From: Bacteroidales bacterium | GTDB lineage: Bacteria; Bacteroidota; Bacteroidia; Bacteroidales; F082 | NCBI GenBank assembly: GCA_017538795.1 | Contig: JAFYIE010000093.1 | Coordinates: forward strand, 1 to 64,000 | Direction: 5' to 3' | Length of the DNA stretch: 64,000 bases | Shown: positions 15,138 to 61,881 of the stretch, piece after piece | Layout of the letters: every line of letters starts with the position of its first letter | How positions within the stretch are numbered: the stretch's first letter is position 1 | Made by a program: the position numbers and the translations under genes | Notes under the pieces: model-generated | Told to the model about the DNA's origin: nothing | Seen by the model: the letters and a program-made list of their open reading frames with translations, nothing else | The model's database searches: none

Positions 15138-16493
15138 TCAACGTTCAAATTCAAGTTGTTTGCCATTTACTTTTTCAACTATTCCATCATGATAAACGAG
15201 TTTACCGTTCACAAAAGTATGCGTCACCTGCGATTTTACAGTCAACCCGTCGTATGGCGTCCAGCCGCATTTATAAAGCATGTCGTCGTTTTTAATAATC
15301 TTTTCGTGATTCAAATCGACGAGAACAAGGTCGGCGTAGTAACCTTCACGAATGAAACCTCTTCCTTTGATTTGATATAAAGTCGCCGGATTATGGCACA
15401 TCAGCTTCACTATCTGCGGCAACGAAACCAACCCTTGATGATAGAGATTCAGCATCACGTCAAGGCTGTTTTGTATCGACGGGAAACCCGATTTTGCCGT
15501 AAAATAGTCGTCGGTAAACTTCTCATGCCACAGATGCGGCGCGTGGTCGGTGCCTATGGTGTCGATATGTCCGTCGATGATGGCTTTACGCAAAATATCA
15601 CGGTCGGAGGCCATCTTTATTGCCGGGTTGCACTTGATGGCAAAGCCTTTCTCATCGTAATCCCTATCGCAGAACGTGAGATAATGAGGACATGTCTCGG
15701 CTGTTATCTTCTTGTCTTTCAGCGGGATATCGTTTCTGAACAGTGTCAGCTCCGACTTCGTCGAGATATGCATTATATGCAGACGTGCGCCGAACTTCGC
15801 GGCCATGTCGACAGCCTTCGCCGACGATTTATAGCATGCTTCGGTAGTACGCACAAAGGGATGAATTCCCGCGTCAGCCACCACCTCGCCTTTTGAAGCC
15901 AAATCTTTGCAGCATACGGTGTTTTCATGAATCGTTTTCTCGTCCTCGCAATGTGCAGCGATAAGGCATGGCGACTCGTTAAACAACCGCACCAACGCAT
16001 CGTCTTCGTTGACGAGCATGTTGCCGGTGCTCGAGCCCATGAACAGCTTGATGCCGCACACCTTCTTCGGGTCGACTTTCTTCACCTCGTCGATGTTGTC
16101 GTTGGTGGCGCCGAGGTAAAACGAATAATTCGCCACTGATTTCTGTGCGGCGAGGTCGAATTTCTGTTGCAGAAGCTCCACCGTTGTCGTTTGCGGGTTG
16201 GTGTTCGGCATGTCCATAAACGACGTCACGCCGCCGGCCACGGCGGCGTGGCTCTCCGTGAAGATATCCGCCTTCTGCGTCAATCCCGGCTCACGGAAAT
16301 GCACATGCTCGTCGATGATGCCAGGGAACAGATATAATCCTTCGGCATCGATGACATCATAATTTGTAAAGACGTGCCATGGCGCGTCTCTACCAATCAA
16401 AATCTTCTCGATTTTTTCGTCAGAAATGACAACACTTGCCAACGTGGTCGTCCCTTCGTTGACAAGTGTCGCGTTTTTAATGATGTAATTCAT
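15138..16493 (-). CDS. pyrC: Dihydroorotase (class I), with a repeat-derived peptide
   Basis: The enzyme cyclises carbamoyl-aspartate to dihydroorotate in pyrimidine synthesis. The 451-residue length fits class I enzymes. Zinc ligands appear in DEHVHFREPG (HVH at 63-65), in AAHCEDEK, in HIMHISTKSEL and in GTDHAPH. Residues 34-44 (GRDAPWHVFTN) are encoded by a 28-base palindromic repeat at 16366-16393 and lie in a variable loop of the N-terminal beta-sandwich before VIDAEGLYLFPG. The gene overlaps the glycosyltransferase stop by one base and is followed after one base by the MORN lipoprotein. Confidence 0.93.
   Translation of the reverse strand: MNYIIKNATLVNEGTTTLASVVISDEKIEKILIGRDAPWHVFTNYDVIDAEGLYLFPGIIDEHVHFREPGLTQKADIFTESHAAVAGGVTSFMDMPNTNPQTTTVELLQQKFDLAAQKSVANYSFYLGATNDNIDEVKKVDPKKVCGIKLFMGSSTGNMLVNEDDALVRLFNESPCLIAAHCEDEKTIHENTVCCKDLASKGEVVADAGIHPFVRTTEACYKSSAKAVDMAAKFGARLHIMHISTKSELTLFRNDIPLKDKKITAETCPHYLTFCDRDYDEKGFAIKCNPAIKMASDRDILRKAIIDGHIDTIGTDHAPHLWHEKFTDDYFTAKSGFPSIQNSLDVMLNLYHQGLVSLPQIVKLMCHNPATLYQIKGRGFIREGYYADLVLVDLNHEKIIKNDDMLYKCGWTPYDGLTVKSQVTHTFVNGKLVYHDGIVEKVNGKQLEFER
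16366..16393. repeat. 28-base palindromic repeat inside pyrC
   Basis: On the plus strand it starts GTAAAGACG and ends GCGTCTCTAC around a CCATGG core, an imperfect palindrome with one symmetric mismatch pair in each half. The same ends, with a different core, occur at 25853-25880 inside murF-alr. It is translated in frame in pyrC. Confidence 0.85.
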
Positions 16494-17230
16494 TATTTTT
16501 GTCTCGGTTTAATCTTACCAAACATTCCTCTCCATCTCAGGTTGAGAACACCGAAAATAGCTTCTCTGAAGATACCGCCCGACATCTTTGAGGTGCCTTC
16601 GCGACGGTCGGTGAAGATAATGGAGACCTCTTCGATCTTGAATCCGAGCTTCCATGCGGTGTATTTCATCTCGATTTGGAAAGCGTATCCAATGAATTTG
16701 ATCCTGTCGAAGTCGATGGTTTCAAGCACTTTACGTGTGTAGCACACGAATCCGGCAGTGGTGTCGCGCACTTTCATTCCCGTCACGAAACGGACGTAAG
16801 CGGAGGCGTAGTACGACATCAAGACACGACCCATCGGCCAGTTCACCACGTTGACACCGCATTTGTAACGTGAGCCAACGGCGAGGTCGGCACCGTTAGC
16901 ACAGGCGTCGCGCAAACGGATGAGGTCGTCAGGGTTATGCGAAAAGTCAGCATCCATCTCAGTAACATACTGATAATCACGCTGCAAAGCCCATTTAAAA
17001 CCATGGATATAAGCGGTTCCAAGTCCCAGCTTGCCTTTTCTTTCCTCGATGAAAAGCCTGTCGGGAAACTCCTGCATGAGGCGTTTCACTATGTCGGCAG
17101 TGCCGTCAGGACTGTTATCTTCAATGACCAGGATGTCGAAAGACATCGGAAGGTTGAAGACATAACGGATTATCTTTTCAATATTCTCTTTCTCGTTATA
17201 CGTCGGGATGATAACTAAATTATCTGCCAT
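16493..17230 (-). CDS. GT2 polyprenol-phosphate mannosyl/glucosyltransferase
   Basis: This is a 245-residue soluble GT-A glycosyltransferase of the dolichol-phosphate mannose synthase type. It has the N-terminal IIPTYNEKENI, the nucleotide-binding VIEDNSPDGTADIV, the DxD metal site in TEMDADFSHNPDDL, and the acceptor-loop residues GSRYKCGVNVVNWP and DTTAGFVCY. It would transfer a sugar from a nucleotide donor to a lipid carrier for use in the periplasm. It lacks the C-terminal membrane domain of eukaryotic-type DPM1 fusions. It is the fourth gene of the TonB-receptor run, 11 bases after the DUF5689 gene. Confidence 0.87.
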   Translation of the reverse strand: MADNLVIIPTYNEKENIEKIIRYVFNLPMSFDILVIEDNSPDGTADIVKRLMQEFPDRLFIEERKGKLGLGTAYIHGFKWALQRDYQYVTEMDADFSHNPDDLIRLRDACANGADLAVGSRYKCGVNVVNWPMGRVLMSYYASAYVRFVTGMKVRDTTAGFVCYTRKVLETIDFDRIKFIGYAFQIEMKYTAWKLGFKIEEVSIIFTDRREGTSKMSGGIFREAIFGVLNLRWRGMFGKIKPRQK

Positions 17231-17241
17231 TTCTTTAAAAA

Positions 17242-18450
17242 TTATTCAGAGTCTGTTAATTCGTATTCGTTTGTATCTTTCATTCCTGATTTACCAAGAT
17301 ATGCCTTCAGGTTACCGTGCACCTTTAAGATCTTACCCAGATTCTCCGGATGGTCTTTTAAGTTGATTTCACGGATTCCAGAGGCTGCATTATGAGGCAG
17401 ATAAACGACGAGGCACTTGTTGATGTCTCTCTCATCCGCTTCATCTGCCAGGATGATATTGGTAATGTTTTCATTATAAGTGAACTCCGGTCCCCATGAG
17501 ATCTGATTATCATTGGTGATAGCACCACTTGCGATGTTTGCCGAGCCAACGATATAACCTCTAACCCATTGAGCCGTATCGCCTTGGTGCTCAAGTCCAG
17601 CCGCAATGTTAAACGGGTCGGTCTCTGTGCCACTGCCTTCTGGAGTGATAATTGACGCTTCTATCGGGTCACCAAACATCTGAACCTCAGAAATGGTACG
17701 GATAGTGAACTGCCATGCGTTGCCTGTGCTGTAATATGTAAGGATGCCAATGATGGTACCGTTACCCTGAGGGAGCATAGTCTTAGCGAAGCTTGCATAA
17801 TTACTTGTTCTCACAATGATTGACTCGTCGACAAGCGAATATGTGCTGTCGGCATTCATCTGATACTGAGCAAGGTTAAACTGTCCGTAAGCGTTGTCTG
17901 GAGCGTATGTGTTATTACGGTCAGCAGCCCTAAACTCAACATTGTAAAATTTCACAAGTCTGCCGATATAGTTACTATTTACATTAAGTGTGCTTATCGA
18001 GTCAGGCTCAATGAATTTGTTATTGGCAAGAATTGTTATATTCCTTGGCTCAAGATCCTGAATCTGAGGTGTGCCGCTGTATTCCGACAAGGTGGCGCCT
18101 TTCAGATACACACGTACCGAATCTCCGATGCGAAGGCCACTGGTGCTCTTCATATAAAGCTCGATAGCCTTGTCGCCGTCCTGGATAAATGAGGCTTTGT
18201 AAAGGTTTCCTGAAGCCTCATCGTCGGTAACAATACCATAAACCGAAGCATCCTGGGTGAATGTGTGTGTTCCTTCGGCATGCCACATGTAAAGCAAAGT
18301 GTCGATAGTGTAAACATCACCAACAGGGAGTTCAAAATTAATGCCCGGTGTCGGATAGTTGTTCTCTTTTTGATTCTTATCGATACACGAGGTCAAAACG
18401 ACCGCTGCCATAAGAACCAATATGCCGTATTTTTTTATTGACTTTAACAT
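17242..18450 (-). CDS. DUF5689 (OB-fold-like) lipoprotein
   Basis: This is a 402-residue lipoprotein (lipobox VLTSC near residue 22). The N-terminal half shows the DUF5689 pattern (ASVYGIVTDDEASGNLYKASFIQDGDKAIELYMK, GDSVRVYLKGATLSEYSGTPQIQ). From about residue 270 there is a second OB-like unit (PFNIAAGLEHQGDTAQWVRGYIVGSA, then KILKVHGNLKAYLGKSGMKDTNEYEL), resembling DUF6359. OB folds of this kind often bind nucleic acid or sugar. It lies between a second DUF5689 lipoprotein and a glycosyltransferase, downstream of a TonB receptor, so a surface-binding role in uptake is the best guess. Confidence 0.8.
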   Translation of the reverse strand: MLKSIKKYGILVLMAAVVLTSCIDKNQKENNYPTPGINFELPVGDVYTIDTLLYMWHAEGTHTFTQDASVYGIVTDDEASGNLYKASFIQDGDKAIELYMKSTSGLRIGDSVRVYLKGATLSEYSGTPQIQDLEPRNITILANNKFIEPDSISTLNVNSNYIGRLVKFYNVEFRAADRNNTYAPDNAYGQFNLAQYQMNADSTYSLVDESIIVRTSNYASFAKTMLPQGNGTIIGILTYYSTGNAWQFTIRTISEVQMFGDPIEASIITPEGSGTETDPFNIAAGLEHQGDTAQWVRGYIVGSANIASGAITNDNQISWGPEFTYNENITNIILADEADERDINKCLVVYLPHNAASGIREINLKDHPENLGKILKVHGNLKAYLGKSGMKDTNEYELTDSE

Positions 18451-18477
18451 ATCTGTAATATTTTGATTATCAATAAA

Positions 18478-20247
18478 TTATTCTTTTATTAACACATTTT
18501 TGACTTCCCAAGTAGGAGCGCCGGCAGTAGTGCTGTTGTATCTGAATGCGATACGCACAGTCTGTCCAAGATATGCTGCAAGGTCAATCGCTCCCGACTC
18601 ATAGAAGTTCCAGTTTTGTCCTGTTGGATAGTTAGGAATTGTAACAGGAGTCCATGATTCCGGTGATGGAGCTGTGCCTGGCTCGTAATCTGTGGAAATC
18701 CACAATGACATCTCACTTTGAGGATTTGCTCCATATTTGTATGCATGCTCAAATGTGAGTATTGCCGACGCAAATCCATCGAGGTCAATCTCAGGTGAAA
18801 TGAGCCAGCTGTCGCTTTGTAAAGCACTGCCTGAGAAAGCGCTTGCCTTCATGCATGAGTACTGTGAATCAAATTTCCAAATGTATGTCAAACCTGCCGG
18901 TACATCAACGTTATAAATTGTGAAGTCGCCCTGACCAGAACCGAATGTCTCGCTGAATATGTTCTGTGGTTGTGGTGTAGGCTCGCCTTCTCTCACCAAA
19001 ATCGATTTGATTTCGATGGTTCCGGCAGCTGAATCTGTAGAAGTGTATTTCACTGCCACATTCACTATCTTGCCGACGAAAGTTTCTGGCATCACCAGTT
19101 CAATATCTTCAAACTGATAATTATTATTCTCAATTTCCGCCGGAATCTGTGTCCATGTTGCTGTTTCAGGCAACGAATCGAATTCGTAGTTGTCCGAAAC
19201 CCAGAATGTCACATCATTATTTATATTATTGAAATACTTGGCGCCGTAGTTCACCTTCACCACGACCTTTTCAACTGCTGTCAAATCGACAGGTGAAGAG
19301 ATGAGCCAGTCTTCATTTTCATAATATGCCTTTCCTGAAACATAGCCCGACATCGTAGCCGCGCTATGATCGATATGCCATTCCTGGTCACCGATCACGC
19401 TCTTTGTAACATATGTTCCGAACGACGATGCAAAGCTCTGATTATATGGGATATCCATCACCTCACCGCCTTGGCCGCATCTGTTTCCGGTCAGGTTCAC
19501 ATCAGTGGTGTTACGGACGAGTAGTTGCCAAGTGGTGTTGTACACCGAAACTATGCTTGCCAATGTGCCTCTTCCCTCAGGAAGTGTATCGGCTGCAAAG
19601 TTGGCGTAGCCGCTTGTACGAACGATGATGGCATCACCGTCGCAGCTCACCAGCGATCTGTTTGTATTACTTGTGCCATCAGCGTATGTTTTACCAAGTT
19701 CGCTATCGTCAAACTGCACATTTTTAAGCTTCACTAGGTCGCAAAGATGATTACCTGCATTGATGTCTTCGATAGTTGTTTCAATAGGCTGAACCTTATC
19801 GTAGCAACCTCTTTTGTAAATAACAATCAATTTGTTAGGATCGTATTCCTGAACCTGAATCTGAGGCAGTTTGCTGTATTCCGAAATGATTGATCCGTAA
19901 AGCGAATAGCCGATATAGTCGCCGGTTTTGACGTTGAAGTCTTCACTTCCACCATCACTGGAGCCTTTTCTGTAAACAGCGATGCATTTTCCATCCTCGC
20001 CTCTCAAATAGAAGGTTCGGTAGATATTTCCGCCAGTCTCATCAGCGATAACGTAACCTTTCACTGTAGCGTTTTTATGCCATTCCTTGTCAAACTGGAA
20101 GGTTCCATTAGCCAAAGTGTCGAGGATTTGTTCGACAGTCCATTCATTTCCTGAAGGGAAATTTGGAATTTCAGGTCTGTCATTGTCTTTTTTGCAAGAC
20201 ATGAGCACCATTGATACACCTATTAATAATATAGCGAGTTTTTTCAT
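18478..20247 (-). CDS. DUF5689 lipoprotein with C-terminal jelly-roll (choice-of-anchor J) domains
   Basis: This is a 589-residue lipoprotein (lipobox VLMSC, Cys 18). Residues 30-250 resemble the DUF5689 part of the next gene (ATVKGYVIADETGGNIYRTFYLRGEDGKCIAVYRK, YSKLPQIQVQEYDPNKL), so the two genes look like diverged paralogues. The remainder has two jelly-roll-like modules with the 'choice-of-anchor' style (IPYNQSFASSFGTYV to WLISSPVDL; FSETFGSGQGDFTIY to WLISPEIDLDGFASAILTFEHAYKYG). It follows the TonB receptor by 18 bases. It is probably a surface-exposed partner of that receptor. Confidence 0.8.
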   Translation of the reverse strand: MKKLAILLIGVSMVLMSCKKDNDRPEIPNFPSGNEWTVEQILDTLANGTFQFDKEWHKNATVKGYVIADETGGNIYRTFYLRGEDGKCIAVYRKGSSDGGSEDFNVKTGDYIGYSLYGSIISEYSKLPQIQVQEYDPNKLIVIYKRGCYDKVQPIETTIEDINAGNHLCDLVKLKNVQFDDSELGKTYADGTSNTNRSLVSCDGDAIIVRTSGYANFAADTLPEGRGTLASIVSVYNTTWQLLVRNTTDVNLTGNRCGQGGEVMDIPYNQSFASSFGTYVTKSVIGDQEWHIDHSAATMSGYVSGKAYYENEDWLISSPVDLTAVEKVVVKVNYGAKYFNNINNDVTFWVSDNYEFDSLPETATWTQIPAEIENNNYQFEDIELVMPETFVGKIVNVAVKYTSTDSAAGTIEIKSILVREGEPTPQPQNIFSETFGSGQGDFTIYNVDVPAGLTYIWKFDSQYSCMKASAFSGSALQSDSWLISPEIDLDGFASAILTFEHAYKYGANPQSEMSLWISTDYEPGTAPSPESWTPVTIPNYPTGQNWNFYESGAIDLAAYLGQTVRIAFRYNSTTAGAPTWEVKNVLIKE

Positions 20248-20265
20248 GATTTTTCTCCTTTCAAA

Positions 20266-22854
20266 TTAATGTCTGACTGCTAAACTGATGAAATAATTTA
20301 TACCATATAGATATGAGTATTTCTCAGGGAAACGCTCCGGATCATCGTAGTCGGAACGAAGCTGTTCGTAACCGTAGAGAACGATGTCTTGGTTATTCAA
20401 CACGTTATTGATACTCACGTTAAGAAGGATTGTGTAACCCTTCACGTTCCACGATTTACCCGCGTAGAGGTCGATGGTGAAAGCGTCATCGAGTTTCTTC
20501 TGTTTGAGAAGCATATCTGTACGATAGTCTTCTTCGTAAAGATTCTCGAAAGCGTCTTTCACATGGTTGGTCGGGTTAACCGCGAGATAATAGTCGGCGA
20601 AATAGTTGGCGTTAACGCTAATCCACCAGTATTTAGGTGAGTTGTATTTCAATCCGATCGAACCGGCTGTCTGTGGCATATCGCCAACATAGTAGTCTTT
20701 AAGATAAACATCATCGCCGTCGTAGATTGCCTCGGCGTTGTTGTCTTCGTAGACATACACTTTCGGGCGGTTGGCATAGCGGTGCTCGCCAATTGTTCCG
20801 GCAAGCTGTGCACTGATTGTAGGTGTGATGTTGATGTCAGCGCCGAGCTCGATACCTTGAGCATACTGCTCGATGTCGTTCATGATGTAGTTGACAAATT
20901 TACCTGTCGACTCATAATAGAACGAGCGGTTCCATGTAAGCTGATAGAACTGTGTGCGATATGCTGCCAAACGTGCTTTCATGAATGGCGCGCGGAATTC
21001 ATAGCCGAGGTCGAAACTGAAGATTTTCTCGTTGTCGACATCGTTCACCACAGTGTTACGCACGCGCGGTGCCACGAACACGCTTCTGAACTCAGGAGCC
21101 TGGCTCTTCAGCATGATGTTGGCCACGATGTAGTTACGTCCGTTGAGAGCGTAGCTGCCACCGGTCTTTAAGCTACCGTTCACCTGATCAAGCTTCTTTG
21201 AGTCGCCATATGACTCATTACCTTGGAAACGACCGTTCTCGAAGTTACCTGTACGGTATAGCTGGGTGTAATCACCCTCCAAGCCGACGTAAGTCGACCA
21301 ACGGTTCTTCACATATGTCAGCTCACTCCAAAGAACCACTTTGTTGACATTGGCAACATAGTCGTAACCGATGATGTCGCCGACTGTTGCGACATGGTTC
21401 TTATTACGGAGATTGTTCTGCTGGGCGTCGGTGATTTCAAAAGCCTCGCCGTCAGCGTATTTGTCGATATCAAGGTAATAATCGCCACCGAGAAGGTCGG
21501 CCAACAATTTATAATAATGAGTCTTTGAGACACCTGCTCTCAAGCCGCCATAAAGATGGACGTTAGGGTTAAACTCATATTTAAATGTGCTCGACAAACC
21601 ATATTGCAACTTATCCTGACGGCGTTCCTCGATGATATATTTCGAGAATTTACCAGTTACAGTGTTGCCGATAATATTGTTGGCGTCGTTGACAGTCTTA
21701 AGGTTTCTCAAGTTGGCTGCATACAAGTTATCCCAGTTGATCTGATGCATGTATTCGTCATTGATCCACTGTTGCAAGTAAGCCTCATAGCCTTCTTGGG
21801 TATATCCATCTTTACCCAAATCGAGCATGTATTTATAATAGCTCGGGAGGTTACGATAGTAGTCAGGACGTGGGTCGGCCGCCTCGCCCCAGTCGAGAGC
21901 TGTTGAGCCACCTTTACCGAACCATACATATGCCGAGGTGTTGATTTGCCACTTCTCGTTCGGGGTCCAGTAATGCTGGAGCTGGAACATAGGCTGGTGA
22001 TACGAGCTCACGCGGGCGTTACGTTTGAATCTGCCGCCGTTTTCGTCGGTCTGCCATCCCCAGTTCGGGTTGTAATAATTATCATTGAGAAGATCGAACG
22101 CCTCTTGCACCGCCGGTGATGACCCCGCGCGGCTTGAAGGAGAGCCGAACACCAGAAATCCCAATGAATGTCTCTTATTAAGTTTCTTTTCAGCTGAAAG
22201 GAAATAGCTACTTCCAGCATACCATGTGCCTTCATTCCAGGCCAACACGCTGCTCATCGGAGTGTAACGTCCCGACACCGACACCGAGAAAGCCCATCCA
22301 TTGTTCATCAAGCCAGTGCTCGCCGTCGCCATAAGTCTATGTGCGTACGAACGGTTCGACAACGAATAGCTCAACGAGATCTGTTTACGGTAGTTGCTGG
22401 CTCTTGTCGAGATAGCCGTCACGCCGGCCGGACCGCCGAAGCTCTCGTAAGTGATGCCCGAGTTAACCATGATAACTGAGTTACGCATCACGTCATTCAA
22501 GCCACCCCAATTTGAGTAGTAAGGACGTCCGCCATCAGGGTCGTTCATCAAAACACCGTTGATCAAAACATCAGTGTATTTTGAATCGTAAGCACGGATA
22601 CGGAACCTTCTTGAGCTGAGGTTGTAAGCCGCGATGTTGTTGAATGCGTCGCGCGACGACTGCAAGAAACTCGAGATATCCGTAGAGCTCTGCGTATCGT
22701 CATACTCCGTGTCAATCATGATGATTGTCGGAAGCGATGTGTTCTCACTGACCGTAGTGTCAGCCGATTGCTTTTGCGCATCAGGTTCCACAAACTGTGC
22801 GTGCAAACTGATTCCTAATGCAACAGCAAGAATTAATAGTAGATACTTCTTCAT
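20266..22854 (-). CDS. TonB-dependent receptor
   Basis: This is an 862-residue outer-membrane receptor. A signal peptide (to about LHA, residue 19) is followed by a short region and a plug domain (FNNIAAYNLSSRRFRIRAYDSKYTDVLINGVLMNDPDGG; GITYESFGGPAGVTAISTRAS). A long barrel ends in the aromatic-rich GINYFISLAVRH with a near-terminal motif usual for barrels. It lacks the N-terminal carboxypeptidase-like domain of SusC proteins and has no SusD neighbour. It heads the run of two DUF5689 lipoproteins, and a secreted endonuclease/phosphatase family gene diverges from it, which suggests uptake of nucleic-acid breakdown products or phosphate (inference). Confidence 0.9.
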   Translation of the reverse strand: MKKYLLLILAVALGISLHAQFVEPDAQKQSADTTVSENTSLPTIIMIDTEYDDTQSSTDISSFLQSSRDAFNNIAAYNLSSRRFRIRAYDSKYTDVLINGVLMNDPDGGRPYYSNWGGLNDVMRNSVIMVNSGITYESFGGPAGVTAISTRASNYRKQISLSYSLSNRSYAHRLMATASTGLMNNGWAFSVSVSGRYTPMSSVLAWNEGTWYAGSSYFLSAEKKLNKRHSLGFLVFGSPSSRAGSSPAVQEAFDLLNDNYYNPNWGWQTDENGGRFKRNARVSSYHQPMFQLQHYWTPNEKWQINTSAYVWFGKGGSTALDWGEAADPRPDYYRNLPSYYKYMLDLGKDGYTQEGYEAYLQQWINDEYMHQINWDNLYAANLRNLKTVNDANNIIGNTVTGKFSKYIIEERRQDKLQYGLSSTFKYEFNPNVHLYGGLRAGVSKTHYYKLLADLLGGDYYLDIDKYADGEAFEITDAQQNNLRNKNHVATVGDIIGYDYVANVNKVVLWSELTYVKNRWSTYVGLEGDYTQLYRTGNFENGRFQGNESYGDSKKLDQVNGSLKTGGSYALNGRNYIVANIMLKSQAPEFRSVFVAPRVRNTVVNDVDNEKIFSFDLGYEFRAPFMKARLAAYRTQFYQLTWNRSFYYESTGKFVNYIMNDIEQYAQGIELGADINITPTISAQLAGTIGEHRYANRPKVYVYEDNNAEAIYDGDDVYLKDYYVGDMPQTAGSIGLKYNSPKYWWISVNANYFADYYLAVNPTNHVKDAFENLYEEDYRTDMLLKQKKLDDAFTIDLYAGKSWNVKGYTILLNVSINNVLNNQDIVLYGYEQLRSDYDDPERFPEKYSYLYGINYFISLAVRH

Positions 22855-22873
22855 TTAACAAAATTTAATCGCA

Positions 22874-22881
22874 CAAATTTA
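22874..22881 (-). promoter_or_regulatory. Promoter -7 box for the TonB-receptor run
   Basis: The minus strand reads TAAATTTG, 19 bases before the receptor ATG. The seven genes down to tadA are spaced by 27 bases or less, so this box may serve them all. Confidence 0.55.
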
Positions 22882-22959
22882 CAATTTTTTCCATTACCTT
22901 AAATAAAAATGGCAAAAATTAATTTCTCGTCAATTTTTATTGCTTATAAAAAAATTCAC

Positions 22960-22967
22960 TATATTTG
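22960..22967 (+). promoter_or_regulatory. Promoter -7 box for the secreted endonuclease/phosphatase gene
   Basis: TATATTTG followed by TAC lies 25 bases before the ATG at 22993. It supports that start over the ATG at 22909, which would be upstream of the box. Confidence 0.6.
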
Positions 22968-22992
22968 TACCCAAATTCATTTTCGTAAAACT

Positions 22993-24054
22993 ATGTTGAA
23001 AAAATTAAACTTTCTGGCAATAGTGATGTTATTCCTCATCACTTTAGCGAACGCTCAGCAACAACAGCTCAAGATGGCTCTCGTAGGTTTCTACAACCTT
23101 GAGAATCTTTATGATACCATCAACGACCCCGACAAGAACGATGAAGAATTTCTGCCTCAAGGCAAAAACGCCTGGAACACCGAGAAATACATCACCAAAC
23201 TGCATAACATGGCTTATGCCATCTCAACCATAGGCACCGACAAAAGCGAAAAGTTCTGCTCTCCTGACGGCCTCATGGTGCTCGGCGTCTCGGAAATCGA
23301 GAACCGCTATGTGCTCGAAGATCTGGTGGCACAGCCTGAGCTTGCCAGCCGCAACTACCAAATCGTTCACTACGACTCACCTGACCGCCGTGGCGTCGAC
23401 GTGGCGCTGCTCTACAACCCGAAGTTTTTCAAGGTGACAAACCACAAGTCATATCGCCTGAATGTCCCTAACCAGCCTAACTTCATCTCACGCGACCAGC
23501 TTGTGGTGACAGGTATCTTGGACGACGAGGAGTTCAGCTTCATCGTGATGCACTGGCCTTCACGTTACGGCGGCGAGAAACGTTCTTTGCCTGGACGTAT
23601 GGCAGCTGCCCACCTCTGCCGTCATATCGCCGACTCCATCATGGAGAAAAACCCTAACGCGAAAATCGTGATGATGGGCGACTACAACGACTATCCGACT
23701 AACAAGAGTATCATCGACGGATTGCGCGCTAAAGGCCGCGTCGAAGATATGAAGGAAGGCGATTTCTTCAACCCAATGTGGAAGATGCACCAAAACGGCG
23801 AAGGCACCAACTACTACCGCGACGTGAAAGGCGTGCTCGACCAATGCATCATCACTCCCGCATTGCTCAAAGACGAGAACAACCCGTTCGCGACATATCA
23901 GCTGTTCAAGCCTATGGTTCATTCGAAAGAATTCTTGAAACAGCACGACGGCCGCTACAACGGATACCCGTGGCGTTCATTCGCAGGCGGCGTGTGGCTC
24001 GGCGGTTATTCCGACCACTTCCCGGTTTACCTTATACTCCTTAAAAGACTTTAG
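22993..24054 (+). CDS. Secreted endonuclease/exonuclease/phosphatase family protein
   Basis: The start at 22993 gives a signal peptide (MLKKLNFLAIVMLFLITLANAQ) and follows a promoter box; a longer frame from 22909 would include the promoter. The 353-residue protein is an EEP-fold phosphoesterase: FYNLENLYD (metal Asn and Glu region), GVSEIEN, YDSPDRRGVDVALLY, VMHWPSR, MMGDYNDYP (the conserved D-x-N) and YSDHFPVY (the catalytic His). It would cut phosphodiester or phosphomonoester bonds in the periplasm or outside. It diverges from the TonB receptor/DUF5689 run. Confidence 0.88.
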   Translation: MLKKLNFLAIVMLFLITLANAQQQQLKMALVGFYNLENLYDTINDPDKNDEEFLPQGKNAWNTEKYITKLHNMAYAISTIGTDKSEKFCSPDGLMVLGVSEIENRYVLEDLVAQPELASRNYQIVHYDSPDRRGVDVALLYNPKFFKVTNHKSYRLNVPNQPNFISRDQLVVTGILDDEEFSFIVMHWPSRYGGEKRSLPGRMAAAHLCRHIADSIMEKNPNAKIVMMGDYNDYPTNKSIIDGLRAKGRVEDMKEGDFFNPMWKMHQNGEGTNYYRDVKGVLDQCIITPALLKDENNPFATYQLFKPMVHSKEFLKQHDGRYNGYPWRSFAGGVWLGGYSDHFPVYLILLKRL

Positions 24055-24062
24055 ACCTAGAC

Positions 24063-24090
24063 GTTAGCCATTAGCTATTAGCCATTATTT
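24063..24090. repeat. Heptamer array (ATTAGCC type)
   Basis: Four 7-base units (GTTAGCC, ATTAGCT, ATTAGCC, ATTATTT) lie directly before a terminator hairpin. The word is the complement of the array at 40907-40962. Confidence 0.75.
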
Positions 24091-24159
24091 TTTAATGCCA
24101 TATGCAGAAATGCGACCTACCACAGGGTACTGTGAGCATTTCGAAAATGGCATTAAAAA
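24088..24159. terminator. Bidirectional terminator hairpin
   Basis: TTTTTTAATGCCAT (24088-24101) pairs with ATGGCATTAAAAA (24147-24159). Inside are GAAATGC/GCATTTC and CACAG/TGTG pairs. It lies between convergent genes, and the T and A flanks suit termination in both directions. Confidence 0.75.
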
Positions 24160-26712
24160 CTATTCTTTCACATAAATTCGTTTTACACGTTGGGAAATTC
24201 GCGTCATGATTTCGTATGGAATCGTGTCGCAGGCTTCCGCTATTGTTTCAATAGGGTGATTGTCGTCGAAGAGTACGGCTGTGTCATCTTCCTGACAATC
24301 GATGCCGGTGACGTCGATCATGGTGAGGTCCATGCAGATGTTTCCGATTATCGGCGCCGCCTTGCCGTTGACCCAGAAACAGGCGTTGCCGTTACCCAGT
24401 TGGCGGCGCAAACCATCGGCGTAACCTATAGGAACCACTGCTATTCTTGAAGGTTTCGTGATCTTTCCGTGGCGACCGTAACCTATAGTCTCGCCAGGTT
24501 CGTATTCCTTGATTTGCTTGATTGTAGTCTTCAGCGACATCACATTATGCAGCTTTCCTCGGTCTTCGTCGCACACTGCCACGCCATAGACGCCAATGCC
24601 CAGACGCACCATATCGTATTGATACTCAGTGAATCGCGAGATGCCGGCAGTGTTCAAAAGATGACGCATGATCTTATACGGGAACGCTGCCACGATCTTC
24701 GAGCTCATCTTCTCGAACATCTCCACCTGATGCATCACAAAATCACGCTCCTCAGGCATGTCGCTCGTCGCGAAATGCGAGAAAACACTCATGATTTTGA
24801 GCTTCGGATTGGCTTTAACACGTTCAATCAAAGTGTCGATTTCTTCTGGAAGGAAACCCAAACGATGCATGCCGGTATCGACTTTGATATGTATTCCGAC
24901 AGGCTTTGTCAGCTCCGTATCCAGTTGATTTATAGCGTCTTCCAGCTGCGACAGGCAACGGAAACTGTAGATATCTGGCTCAAGATTATTTTCAATGATC
25001 TCGTCGAAGGTATTGGTCTCAGGCGTCATCACCATGATTGGCAAACGGATGCCTTTGTTGCGCAGTTCCACACCTTCGTCGGCATACGCAACAGTAAGAT
25101 AATCAACATGATGGAAAGCGAGAGCGTTCGACACCTCGTAGTTGCCGCTGCCGTAAGCAAAAGCCTTCACCATAACCATCATCTTGGTGTCTTTTTTCAG
25201 CTTTCCACGATAATAGTTGAGGTTTTTAATAAGGTTGTCGAGGTTGATCTCAAGCACCGTCTCATGCGACTTCTGCTGCAGCACTTTCATGATGCGCTCA
25301 AACTCGAAACTACGGGCGCCTTTCAACAGAACTATCTGATTTTCAAACATTTTCATCGGGTGATTAGCGAGAAAATCAGAAGTTGAGGTGTAAAAATATG
25401 AGGTTCCTCGCTGCGCTCGGAATGACAGCGTTTTTGAGTAGCGAATCAAAGCCGGACCGATGCCTATGAATGTGTCAACACCTTTATTTTCAATGAGTTG
25501 TGCAACATTTTTATAAAGGTCTTCTTCTTTCAGTTCGCTCTGGAGGATATCAGAAAGAATCAGCACCTTGTTGTCGTGATGCTGCGCGTTCATGAAGTCG
25601 AGGGCTATGGCGAGAGCGTTTCTATCGTTATTATATGAATCGTTGATTATCAGACAATTACGCACACCTGCTTTCAATTCCATTCGCATCTCTACAGCCT
25701 CTAGATGTGCCATACGCTCCGCTATTACATCATTCGGCAGACCGAGCAAGAGCGCCACGCACCAGCAGTTGATTGCGTTTTCAATCGATGCGTTGTCGAT
25801 GAAAGGGATGGTGATGGCGATTGTTTCACCACGGAATTGCGCAATGATTCGCGTAAAGACGCACGGCCGGGCGTCTCTACATACATTATCATTGTGTGTT
25901 ATCGATGAAACAAACAAATCGGCGTTTTCATCAATTTTACTCCATGAAAATGTATGGATTCCATGGTTTACAACGATTTCATCGACATCAGCGTTATCCT
26001 TGCAATAAACCAGATTATCAATTCCATCGAATAATTTTATTTTCTCCTCTATCTTCTGCTGAACATCTTTAAAATTCTTGCCGTGAGCAGGTCCGATGTT
26101 TGTGAACACACCAATGGTCGGTTTTATTATCTCGCGCAGCTTTTCCATCTCACCCGGACGCGAAATACCTGCTTCGAAAAGCGCTATCTCGTGCGTCGAA
26201 TCCATCTGCCACACCGACAATGGCACTCCTATTTGTGAGTTGTAGCTCTTCGGACTGCGGCACACCGACATCGAGGGCGACAATATCTGATACAGCCACT
26301 CCTTCACCACCGTTTTGCCATTGCTGCCGGTGATTCCTACGACAGGAATATTGAACTGCGAGCGATGATATGCAGCAAGGGTTTGAAGGGCAATCAAAGT
26401 ATCGTTAACAACCACAAAAACGGCGTCAGAATATTGTTTTAAGGCATCAAATTGCGCGTTAGCATCGTATTTTTCAATGTTTTTCTGCGAAATCACAAAG
26501 GATTTTACGCCTTTTTCATACAATTCGGCGATATATTTATGACCGTCATTCCTTCCGCTATAAAGCGCGAAAAACAGCGTGTTTTCAGCATCAATCAGCA
26601 ATCTGCTGTCAAACAAAATATCCTTTATAATAATTGTATCTGATTGATTACCAATTATTTGACCTCCAACGATAGAGACAATTTGTTTTATAGTATAACC
26701 TTCGTTTTGCAT
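24160..26712 (-). CDS. murF-alr: Bifunctional MurF (UDP-MurNAc-tripeptide:D-Ala-D-Ala ligase) / alanine racemase
   Basis: The 850-residue fusion joins two peptidoglycan steps: D-alanine supply and addition of D-Ala-D-Ala to the UDP-MurNAc tripeptide. The MurF part (1 to about 475) has the ATP loop VVGITGSNGKTVVKEWL, the lysine region ICRSPKSYNSQIGVPLS-like segment, and NDSYNNDRNALAIALDF. The racemase part begins near residue 485 with the PLP lysine in MVKAFAYGSG (about 514) and has YADGLRRQLGNGNACFWVNGK later. Such fusions are known in Bacteroidota. Two repeat-derived peptides lie in the MurF part: about 277-287 (CRDARPCVFTR) and about 428-436 (SFRAQRGTS). A promoter box lies only four bases before the ATG. 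Confidence 0.93.
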   Translation of the reverse strand: MQNEGYTIKQIVSIVGGQIIGNQSDTIIIKDILFDSRLLIDAENTLFFALYSGRNDGHKYIAELYEKGVKSFVISQKNIEKYDANAQFDALKQYSDAVFVVVNDTLIALQTLAAYHRSQFNIPVVGITGSNGKTVVKEWLYQILSPSMSVCRSPKSYNSQIGVPLSVWQMDSTHEIALFEAGISRPGEMEKLREIIKPTIGVFTNIGPAHGKNFKDVQQKIEEKIKLFDGIDNLVYCKDNADVDEIVVNHGIHTFSWSKIDENADLFVSSITHNDNVCRDARPCVFTRIIAQFRGETIAITIPFIDNASIENAINCWCVALLLGLPNDVIAERMAHLEAVEMRMELKAGVRNCLIINDSYNNDRNALAIALDFMNAQHHDNKVLILSDILQSELKEEDLYKNVAQLIENKGVDTFIGIGPALIRYSKTLSFRAQRGTSYFYTSTSDFLANHPMKMFENQIVLLKGARSFEFERIMKVLQQKSHETVLEINLDNLIKNLNYYRGKLKKDTKMMVMVKAFAYGSGNYEVSNALAFHHVDYLTVAYADEGVELRNKGIRLPIMVMTPETNTFDEIIENNLEPDIYSFRCLSQLEDAINQLDTELTKPVGIHIKVDTGMHRLGFLPEEIDTLIERVKANPKLKIMSVFSHFATSDMPEERDFVMHQVEMFEKMSSKIVAAFPYKIMRHLLNTAGISRFTEYQYDMVRLGIGVYGVAVCDEDRGKLHNVMSLKTTIKQIKEYEPGETIGYGRHGKITKPSRIAVVPIGYADGLRRQLGNGNACFWVNGKAAPIIGNICMDLTMIDVTGIDCQEDDTAVLFDDNHPIETIAEACDTIPYEIMTRISQRVKRIYVKE
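25400..25428. repeat. Interspersed repeat inside murF-alr (TCATTCCGAGC type)
   Basis: On the minus strand the unit runs TGTCATTCCGAGCG, then CAGCGAGGAACCTC. A similar unit in the opposite orientation lies at 57031-57056. It is translated as SFRAQRGTS in the last third of the MurF part. This sequence type recurs widely in bacterial genomes (my recollection). Confidence 0.8.
25853..25880. repeat. 28-base palindromic repeat inside murF-alr
   Basis: It has the same ends as the repeat in pyrC (GTAAAGACG and GCGTCTCTAC) around a different GC-rich core (CGGCCG). On the coding strand it is read in the same phase as in pyrC, giving RDA, three variable residues, then VFT. Confidence 0.85.
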
Positions 26713-27841: not shown

Positions 27842-27931
27842 CGTCATTTCGAGCGTAACGAAGTGAAGTCGAGAAATCTCCTCCAATTGCTTGAGATTTC
27901 TCCGTTCCGCTTCGCTTCAGTCGAAATGACG
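27842..27931. repeat. Interspersed inverted repeat (CGTCATTTCGAG type) between convergent genes
   Basis: The 90-base element begins CGTCATTTCGAGC and ends TCGAAATGACG, with inner arms GAGAAATCTC and GAGATTTCTC. It fills the gap between pdxA and the deaminase gene and may act as a bidirectional terminator. Related copies are at 29640-29754 and 57061-57149. Confidence 0.85.
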
Positions 27932-41347: not shown

Positions 41348-42570
41348 TTTCTAACGTTCAAAATATAAATATTGCTGAATACGACTACCCGTTGCCGGAT
41401 GGGAGGATTGCAAAATATCCGCTGGCAGAGAGGGATGCGTCGAAATTATTGGTTTTAAAAGGCGCGTCTTTACAACAGGACCATTTTCGTAATATCGGCA
41501 ATTATTTACCACCGAAATCCGTTTTGATTTTCAACGAGACCAAGGTCGTCCGCGCGCGTCTGCAGTTTGTGAAAGAATCTGGAGCCGCCATCGAAATATT
41601 CTGTTTGGAACCGATAACAGGCAACGGCGACTATCAGCTTGCGTTCTCGGCGGGGTCTCCGGTAGAGTGGCATTGTCTTGTTGGAAATTCAAGAAGATGG
41701 AAGGACGGATTTTTATACATGCCATTGAACATCAAAGGCAAAGACGTCGTTTTGAAAGCCGAACGCATTGAAAAAACCGACGCCTATTCTTTGATACGAT
41801 TTTCATGGGAGCCGGAGAACATCAGTTTTGCGGAGGTGCTTGAGTCGGCGGGAGAGATCCCGTTGCCGCCGTATCTGCATCGCGAGGCGGAGCCGAGCGA
41901 TAGGGAACGTTACCAGACGGTGTTCGCAAAATACGAGGGTTCAGTAGCGGCGCCGACTGCGTCGTTGCACCTCACCAAGCCGCTGATTGCTAAATTGAAG
42001 GAGCAGGGACACACTATAGAAGAAGTTACTTTGCACGTCGGCGCCGGCACATTCCGTCCGGTGGCAACAGATACCATCGGAGAGCACGAGATGCACTCTG
42101 AGTCTATCATCGTGAACAAGCAATGCATTGAGCATCTGCACGATAACATCGGCAGGACGATAATTCCAGTCGGCACCACCAGCATGCGCACAATCGAGTC
42201 GTTATACTGGATCGGCGTGATGCTGCTCGAACAAGGTTTCGAGGAACGCAATCTGCATGTAAACCAATGGTTTCCGTATCAGGACAGAGAAAAGCTGCCT
42301 TCAGCAAAAGAAAGCCTTGAAGCCATCTTAAAATATCTGGAAACGCATCATCTCGACGCTTTGCATGCCACCACTGCCTTGATGATAGCTCCCTCCTGCC
42401 CTATCATGATTACGAAGGCGCTCATCACCAACTTCCACCAGCCGAAGAGCACGCTTTTGCTGCTAGTTTCAGCCTTGATTGGCGACAAATGGAAAGAGGC
42501 GTACAAGTTTGCGTTGGAGCACGATTTTAGATTTTTATCCTACGGAGATTCGTGCTTGTTTGTGCCGTAA
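41344..42570 (+). CDS. queA: S-adenosylmethionine:tRNA ribosyltransferase-isomerase
   Basis: QueA transfers the ribosyl part of AdoMet to preQ1 in tRNA to make epoxyqueuosine. The 408 residues are longer than many QueA proteins (about 350), and the family is recognised by YPLPDGRIAKYPLAERDASKLLV, SVLIFNETKVVRARL, GEIPLPPYLHREAEPSDRERYQTVFAKYEGSVAAPTASLH, LHVGAGTFRPV, GTTSMRTIESL and NFHQPKSTLLLLVSALIG. It is the last gene of the era-der-S4 run. No preQ1 riboswitch was seen. Confidence 0.94.
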   Translation: MISNVQNINIAEYDYPLPDGRIAKYPLAERDASKLLVLKGASLQQDHFRNIGNYLPPKSVLIFNETKVVRARLQFVKESGAAIEIFCLEPITGNGDYQLAFSAGSPVEWHCLVGNSRRWKDGFLYMPLNIKGKDVVLKAERIEKTDAYSLIRFSWEPENISFAEVLESAGEIPLPPYLHREAEPSDRERYQTVFAKYEGSVAAPTASLHLTKPLIAKLKEQGHTIEEVTLHVGAGTFRPVATDTIGEHEMHSESIIVNKQCIEHLHDNIGRTIIPVGTTSMRTIESLYWIGVMLLEQGFEERNLHVNQWFPYQDREKLPSAKESLEAILKYLETHHLDALHATTALMIAPSCPIMITKALITNFHQPKSTLLLLVSALIGDKWKEAYKFALEHDFRFLSYGDSCLFVP

Positions 42571-56797: not shown

Positions 56798-57544
56798 ATG
56801 GATAATTTCAAGCGTTTTATGACTTTTTCGCGTGGCGAACGCATTGCAATCATTACTATCGTGTCGATAATTGTTATCATATTGATTGCCAAATACTTAA
56901 TTATTTCAAATCCTCCAAAACGAACGTATTTTTTTCATGATTTGGATTCGATTATTGAACGTAGGAATGCGATGCTGGATTCGATTAGGATTGCTGATTC
57001 GATTGAGAAGCAGACTGCCAAACAGAATCAGATTCCTCGCTACGCTCGGAATGACAGAGCCGTCATTTCGAGTGAACCTCGAGCGAAGAGAGAGGGTAAT
57101 CGAGAAATCTCCGAGATTTCTCCACTTCCTGCGGTCGGTCGAAACGACGTGTTAATCGACATCAACACTGCCGACACCACATTATTGAAACAGTTGCCAG
57201 GAATTGGCGGCGCTTACGCAAAATGGATAGTGGAATATCGCGAAAAACTTGGCGGATACTGCGAGACAGAGCAGCTGCTGGAGATTTATCGCATGGACAC
57301 CACACGATACAACGAATTCAAAAATCAAGTGAAAATCGATTCGACTTTTATTCCTAAAAGACTGAGAATCAACTCTGATACATTTAAGGTTTTGTTAAAG
57401 CATCCTTATCTCGAATTCGACGACGTGAAGAAAATTGTGAATCACCGAGAACAAAAAGGAATGATTGCATCGTGGGAGCAACTCGTGAAAGTCGTTGGCG
57501 ACGCAATCAATCCGAAATTACAGTATTATATTGATTATCAATAA
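56798..57544 (+). CDS. Membrane-anchored helix-hairpin-helix (ComEA-like) protein with repeat-derived linker
   Basis: This is a 248-residue protein. A membrane segment lies at residues 17-37 (IAIITIVSIIVIILIAKYLII) and a charged stretch follows (40-77). Residues 78-117 (IPRYARNDR to AVGRNDV) are encoded by two interspersed repeats placed end to end. The C-terminal half has two helix-hairpin-helix units: DINTADTTLLKQLPGIGGAYAKWIVEYRE (about 120-150) and KVLLKHPYLEFDDVKKIVNHRE with its partner (about 190-220). The domain order fits the ComEA-like DNA-binding family in Bacteroidota, so it could tether DNA at the membrane. It abuts the ccsBA stop with no gap. Confidence 0.85.
   Translation: MDNFKRFMTFSRGERIAIITIVSIIVIILIAKYLIISNPPKRTYFFHDLDSIIERRNAMLDSIRIADSIEKQTAKQNQIPRYARNDRAVISSEPRAKREGNREISEISPLPAVGRNDVLIDINTADTTLLKQLPGIGGAYAKWIVEYREKLGGYCETEQLLEIYRMDTTRYNEFKNQVKIDSTFIPKRLRINSDTFKVLLKHPYLEFDDVKKIVNHREQKGMIASWEQLVKVVGDAINPKLQYYIDYQ
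57031..57056. repeat. Interspersed repeat inside the helix-hairpin-helix gene (TCATTCCGAGC type, reverse)
   Basis: GATTCCTCGCTACGCTCGG, then AATGACA, is the reverse orientation of the unit at 25400-25428. It is translated as IPRYARND. Confidence 0.85.
57061..57149. repeat. Interspersed inverted repeat inside the helix-hairpin-helix gene (CGTCATTTCGAG type)
   Basis: It begins CGTCATTTCGAGTG and ends GTCGAAACGACG, with inner arms GAGAAATCTC and GAGATTTCTC. It is the same type as 27842-27931 but lies inside an open frame, only four bases after another repeat. Confidence 0.85.
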
Positions 57545-61832: not shown

Positions 61833-61881
61833 TTTTTTCGGTGCAAATATAACAAAAATCATTATATTTGCACCGAAAAAA
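61833..61881. promoter_or_regulatory. Perfect inverted repeat holding two divergent promoters
   Basis: Two 20-base arms (61833-61852 and 61862-61881) are exact complements around a 9-base spacer. Each arm carries a TATATTTG box followed by GCACCG: 61863-61870 on the plus strand for the fusion gene, 61844-61851 on the minus strand for the lipoprotein. Confidence 0.7.

Follow-up and report, generated by a model that had tools for sequence, protein, structure and literature searches.

GTAG-tagged palindromes translated inside Bacteroidales enzymes very probably belong to the REPs of RAYT transposases and occupy protein loops that are re-used among sister species

To what kind of DNA does a 28-bp palindrome belong that is translated within two unrelated enzymes of one bacterium? 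The question is raised by the window, a stretch of 64,000 nt (contig JAFYIE010000093.1, assembly GCA_017538795.1) from a Bacteroidales genome, G000, which is a 2.48 Mb draft of 122 contigs and 93.5% completeness. A preliminary description had noted that palindromes in pyrC and murF-alr have common ends, different cores and the same reading phase, and we confirmed that this observation is real; both genes lie on the minus strand. On the plus strand, positions 16366-16393 read GTAAAGACG-TGCCATGGC-GCGTCTCTAC and positions 25853-25880 read GTAAAGACG-CACGGCCGG-GCGTCTCTAC. In translation, the pyrC copy reads G-RDA-PWH-VFT-N, with GRDAPWHVFT as PyrC residues 34-43, and the murF copy reads C-RDA-RPC-VFT-R. 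The elements and their host genes are as follows.

15138..16493, minus strand: pyrC, dihydroorotase, 451 aa, host of the first copy; Pfam Amidohydro_1; best solved relative 2gwn (dihydroorotase)
16366..16393, minus strand: 28-bp palindrome with CCATGG-type core, translated as (G)RDAPWHVFT in PyrC
24160..26712, minus strand: murF-alr fusion, 850 aa, host of the second copy; Pfam Mur_ligase_M, Mur_ligase_C, Ala_racemase_N and Ala_racemase_C
25853..25880, minus strand: 28-bp palindrome with CGGCCG-type core, translated as (C)RDARPCVFT in MurF-Alr
41461..41478, plus strand: right-hand part of an element (GGCGCGTCTTTAC), in frame in a gene presumably of queA type; the ortholog in sister species G011 has the whole element there (site L267:1759)

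We read the last of these as a truncated copy. The window repeats are very probably double-foot GTAG repetitive extragenic palindromes (REPs) of the kind that goes with subclass 2.4 REP-associated tyrosine transposases (RAYTs; TnpA-REP, HUH/Y1), the class being judged from the published description. They belong to a dispersed family, lie in frame and sit in re-used loops, and in relatives such copies are associated with RAYT genes whose lineages match the cores.

Is the likeness of the two window copies more than chance? A loose scan of the window alone gave 3 matches against 1.4 in shuffles, and 18 of 100 shuffles reached 3. As this count is weak, the significance rests on the two exact matches and on genome-wide counts. 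A tight pattern with up to 3 mismatches matched the whole of G000 at 28 forward and 31 reverse places, compared with 1 and 0 for the reversed control, and a looser pattern gave 48 matches versus 22 for its control at 3 mismatches and 26 versus 1 at 1 mismatch. The family consensus is GTAGAGACN12GTCTCTAC. Both feet are intact in many copies, and copies with a single tag are present too, for instance those ending CGTCTCAAT. In the perfect 28-bp form GTAG pairs with CTAC and the stem reaches 12 bp (-12.5 kcal/mol). As DNA hairpins, the pyrC copy folds with -4.8 and -6.6 kcal/mol on its two strands (z -2.2 and -3.4) and the murF copy with -5.9 and -6.0 kcal/mol (z -2.3 and -2.4). The family as a whole thus bears the marks of a double-foot REP, a long hairpin bounded by 5' GT[AG]G and 3' C[TC]AC.

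REPs owe their name to being extragenic. Upon surveying the copies genome-wide, as the preliminary description had proposed, we found 29 of 38 examined copies in G000 inside open reading frames (ORFs), 27 of them in ORFs of at least 150 aa and 2 in shorter ones, with 3 copies overlapping an ORF and 6 intergenic; this survey used 29 of 45 loci, 9 others duplicating stretches already included and 7 loci with mostly asymmetric copies being omitted. The sister species G011 had 41 of 61 copies inside ORFs (40 in ORFs of at least 150 aa, 1 in a shorter one), with 4 overlapping and 16 intergenic. The commonest core was CGCCATGGCA in G000 (11 of 38) and CACGGCCGTG in G011 (30 of 61). Hosts with a Pfam family included AnmK, EPSP synthase (two copies), a TsaD-family protein, a polysaccharide deacetylase, a GH77 glucanotransferase, CutC, an S66 LD-carboxypeptidase, a U32 peptidase, a PIF1-like helicase, NqrA and a ClpB-type ATPase, and 5 of 20 host ORFs had no Pfam family. 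Further hosts in G011 are, judging by sequence features, presumably NusA, TruB, QueA and RibD. In the TruB-like gene (L301:1501) the REP lies close to the gene start; REPs in pseudouridine synthase B genes of other phyla are listed in the available part of Di Nocera 2013 (PMC3733652). Two similar proteins of G000 with type IX secretion tails (L015:1501 and L035:1682) differ in their cores at a matching position (VETCHGASLQ and IETFQETSLQ).

The family extends well beyond these two genomes. At no more than 1 mismatch, the pattern was found in 58 of 60 genomes of the genus (G000 counted), at 0 to 85 places each, and in 15 of 40 genomes outside it. When named genomes were scanned for the exact CCATGG-type 28-mer, at least 116 stretches matched, with 80 loci listed. 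Among the matches listed, the carriers are many rumen or gut Bacteroidales drafts, cyanobacteria, three Patescibacteria drafts and a Turneriella draft, and copies inside greedily called ORFs numbered 26 of 58 in Bacteroidales, 2 of 22 in cyanobacteria and 1 of 6 in others (Fisher p 0.003 for Bacteroidales versus cyanobacteria; taxa grouped by record title). In total, 29 of these 86 copies lay in an ORF compared with 2678 of 3200 random places, which implies that genes are avoided everywhere, least in Bacteroidales. We therefore rejected an insertion preference for genes. No copy among 70 in-ORF copies stood in the third reading phase, which brings a TAG stop; this is no test, as the ORF caller cannot report such copies. 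The greedy calls also misplace at least one gene, L040, which belongs on the plus strand according to its G011 counterpart. Insertion is probably blind to genes, and selection would then retain those copies that keep the frame open in tolerant loops; the in-ORF share falls below random, as this scheme predicts.

Could the peptides instead be ordinary conserved protein sequence, with the likeness in DNA arising from common codons? We found no support for this, and we give it practically no credence. Sister PyrC and MurF proteins without the element differ at these residues, when the preliminary description would have been undermined by finding the same residues there, and the same DNA is found in unrelated genes, where it is read in two phases, as well as in intergenic positions. 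It is also extremely unlikely that the repeats are kin to the palindromic elements of Rickettsia, a resemblance to which had been noted at the outset. Those elements, too, are palindromes that are read in frame within unrelated genes; in the available part of the review PMC10969869, however, they are about 150 bp long, or CGTC-tagged with stems of 8-9 bp, have no link to RAYTs and form a separate DNA family. The elements here have 28 bp, GTAG feet, a stem of at most 12 bp and an association with RAYTs, so that only the analogy stands.

Does the element add to the protein or replace a part of it? Relative to apparently empty sister proteins, the net gain had a per-site median of +6 residues with a range of -5 to 18 (73 segments in 34 site alignments, PyrC and MurF being counted twice), less than the 9-10 codons of the element. 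The solved dihydroorotase 2gwn aligns across PyrC residues 34-43 without a gap. The preliminary description had each element adding RDA, three variable residues and VFT to its enzyme. Its translation in frame holds, whereas the alignments indicate that the peptide partly replaces a loop of variable length and is not simply added. In an AlphaFold model of PyrC (25-row alignment; mean pLDDT 75.9, and 81-84 around the loop), the peptide is predicted to lie between the strands at 27-33 and 45-49, which supports the earlier proposal that the element becomes fixed in frame in loops.

We then asked what stands at the same sites in sister species. Orthologs within a seven-genome group were found with chimeric queries and aligned for 16 G000 and 36 G011 sites; PyrC and MurF belong to both sets, and 4 more G011 sites had no ortholog among the loci examined. 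With a regular-expression classifier, which is crude and misses, for example, an identical MalQ element of G011, an element was found at the homologous site in 29 of 85 sister states for the G000 sites (4 with the same core, 12 with another core and 13 with another repeat family) and in 54 of 145 for the G011 sites (10, 23 and 21, respectively). Matches were concentrated on the sites, with 29 in 1954 codons on site versus 11 in 7117 off site for G000 and 54 in 3407 versus 17 in 9011 for G011, giving odds of 9.7 and 8.5; p-values for these densities mean little, because their calculation ignores dependence among codons and kinship among species. With a strict hairpin scan there were 21 hits on site, compared with 8 off site, of which 3 were the other AroA site. 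The PyrC loop illustrates the pattern, with a CCATGG core in G000, a CGGCCG core in G011, a GATTNATC-type core in G005, G015 and G026, and no REP in G017 and G034. Among distant PyrC rows, 11 of 22 (judged by eye) have an unrelated repeat in this loop, mostly an EPVEG-type peptide. The loops are re-used slots, filled by different cores and by other repeat families. A loop that accepts one element would accept others, and later lineages and unrelated repeats may fill the same slots.

Several single loops are worth recording. Distant congeners (L053, L056, L057, L059, L060, L064-L066 and L071-L073) have an unrelated repeat in the PyrC loop, read as EPVEG, RQAQ and GPSTGSG-type peptides, and a literature search with the letters of this repeat found nothing. 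The polysaccharide deacetylase loop, where G000 has a REP, holds tandem repeats of about 7 bases (TLNSKLS-type peptides) in L086, L089 and L095-L097.

Which machinery would spread such elements? In G011, two perfect copies flank a 194-aa gene that holds a third in frame; the product of this gene scores 25.6 bits against Y1_Tnp, just above the cut-off of 23. Relatives of this RAYT were found in 37 of 70 genomes; a search with a 10-row RAYT alignment found them in 8 of 16 selected genomes. Under laxer criteria and counting by hand, 29 of 48 distinct RAYT-type matches have a palindrome inside or within 250 bp, some of the 48 being pieces of one gene and L420 repeating L387; under strict criteria the figure is 21 of 30 loci. 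An inner copy is present in 19 of the 48 and, in the aligned proteins, is located after MPNHxH. All 15 matches with both inner and flanking copies have a core common to the two. The motifs of subclass 2.4 are NH[IFV]H, WQ and YIxNNP; every row of the RAYT alignment (A3) has both His, WQ and YIxxN, DHxH occurs in some rows, and several lack the last P (YIENNV). When the core labels are mapped on a tree of 24 RAYTs they change 8 times, as few changes as 9 labels allow; shuffled labels gave a mean of 16.1, and none of 200 shuffles reached 8. The CGGCCG group forms a single clade spanning three families; the CCATGG group does not do so in the best tree, because a long-branch row nests inside it. 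Copy number follows the transposase, with a median of 34 copies in genomes with a RAYT match versus 9 in those without (25 and 16 genomes, G001-G041; p 0.002), and this holds per Mb. Of six Y1 loci from the genus, only one had a GTAG-type palindrome, about 950 bp away. Each RAYT lineage would go with one core type. The pyrC (CCATGG) and murF (CGGCCG) copies probably stem from two RAYT lineages, and we infer that RAYTs moved the window copies and once acted in this lineage.

A quite different origin would be local, with template switching at unstable sites building hairpins in place and no transposase involved. The pyrC loop of G017 (L049) speaks for it, holding in frame a 43-nt inverted repeat with 20-bp arms and no REP, which looks like a template-switch product. 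For the GTAG palindromes we regard local formation as decidedly unlikely, since the exact 28-mer turns up in different phyla, many genes share the same few core types, and RAYT genes have copies on their flanks.

Several results weigh against assigning the window repeats to RAYTs. No RAYT was found in the 93.5%-complete draft of G000 with PF01797, the G011 RAYT or the 10-row alignment, and none in G017, G026 or G034, all drafts, with the latter two queries. Loss of the RAYT gene is known for other REP-bearing genomes; given this and the draft state of G000, the missing RAYT does not decide the kind of element. Both window copies have one GTAG/CTAC foot and one degenerate foot, GTAA/TTAC. No palindrome lies near 19 of the 48 RAYT matches, many copies occur without a RAYT match in G012 (63) and G045 (35), and G052 has RAYT matches with no copies. 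The RAYT tree was built without the linker, its core labels are coarse and were assigned by the analyst from palindromes near the RAYTs, the CCATGG group forms one clade in only 18% of bootstrap trees, and many forks are left open by the other rows. Finally, empty sites showed no target-site homology, the mean best tip match being 4.44 on site and 4.51 off site.

How, then, do cores change within a loop? We compared 19 pairs, chosen by eye and with a palindrome required in both species. In 12 pairs the cores were unrelated (34 of 120 core positions identical, compared with 183 of 216 in the tips), two of these pairs involving another 28-bp palindrome family, and in 7 they were alike (66 of 70). 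Cores were thus near identical or random and none was intermediate except that of MurF between G000 and G011, at 7 of 10, a possible compensatory change; this distribution disfavors a gradual, compensatory drift. Within the assignment to RAYT-associated REPs, two refinements come into question. One is loss followed by fresh insertion into the same tolerant loop. The other is exchange in place: the resident element would serve as a landing pad, and RAYT action, recombination or template switching between copies with common tips would replace its interior. Consistent with exchange, the PyrC sites of G000 and G011 have both boundaries and the right flank alike at 29 of 30 positions while 7 of 10 core bases differ, a third core type stands at the same place in G005, G015 and G026, and the cores fall into the two extremes just described. 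However, at NqrA and elsewhere the linkers next to the element vary in length with the core type, as fits separate insertions; nine-base tips are short for homologous recombination; and only G005+G017 were resolved in a seven-genome tree, so the replacements cannot be ordered. On balance, exchange in place seems possible but somewhat doubtful. We propose only tentatively that protein loops are exchangeable REP slots whose cores incoming RAYT lineages overwrite in place. If so, the same loops of a set of housekeeping proteins would change from one species to the next as transposases turn over, and loop peptides would record past RAYTs even once the transposase was lost.

How much of this is new? 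Cyanobacterial small dispersed repeats (Elhai 2008) are reportedly dispersed hairpins of 21-27 nt with compensatory changes; among the matches listed here, cyanobacterial copies of the exact 28-mer lay inside ORFs in 2 of 22 cases. The available part of Quentin 2018 (PMC6006769) describes double-foot REPs, possibly derived from inverted dimers, with GT[AG]G and its complement at the ends, Bacteroidetes and Cyanobacteria RAYT genes flanked by such REPs, and in-frame REPs within the subclass 2.4 genes of these phyla. Unlike there, most copies examined here lie in other genes, housekeeping genes included, sister species have different cores and other repeats in the same loops, and no RAYT was found in G000. 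In the available part of Di Nocera 2013 (PMC3733652), short GTAG-tagged hairpins include some in frame within ORFs of other genes, loops and linkers are suggested as tolerant, and REPs stand at about the same recB site in two Xanthomonas species. In that part, however, REPs are mostly intergenic, the tag is unpaired and no GTAG repeats are listed for Bacteroidetes, whereas here GTAG pairs with CTAC and many loops are common to species with changed cores. Within the open-licence literature, we found no account of such a scale in Bacteroidales housekeeping genes, of loops re-used by several repeat families or of core change between sister species, and searches on the repeat letters, rumen Bacteroidales REPs and loop insertions gave nothing of use. 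The DNA is therefore of a known kind, and its behavior across species is, to our knowledge, an unreported variant. Most examined copies in the two genomes are translated, for example in PyrC, MurF, EPSP synthase, NqrA and the ClpB-type ATPase. They offer a natural map of the essential-enzyme loops in which foreign peptides are tolerated, they allow transposase invasions to be read from proteins, and they warn that such peptides are repeat DNA and not conserved motifs.

The window holds other repeats as well. At 27844-27930, 29641 and 57063-57146 there are ATTTCGAGCG...GAGAAATC-type repeats, apparently intergenic; in the sister species, this type stands in frame in loops of TsaB, U32, LdcA, MalQ and others. 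At 61833-61881, an inverted repeat whose 20-bp arms end in runs of T and A is terminator-like.

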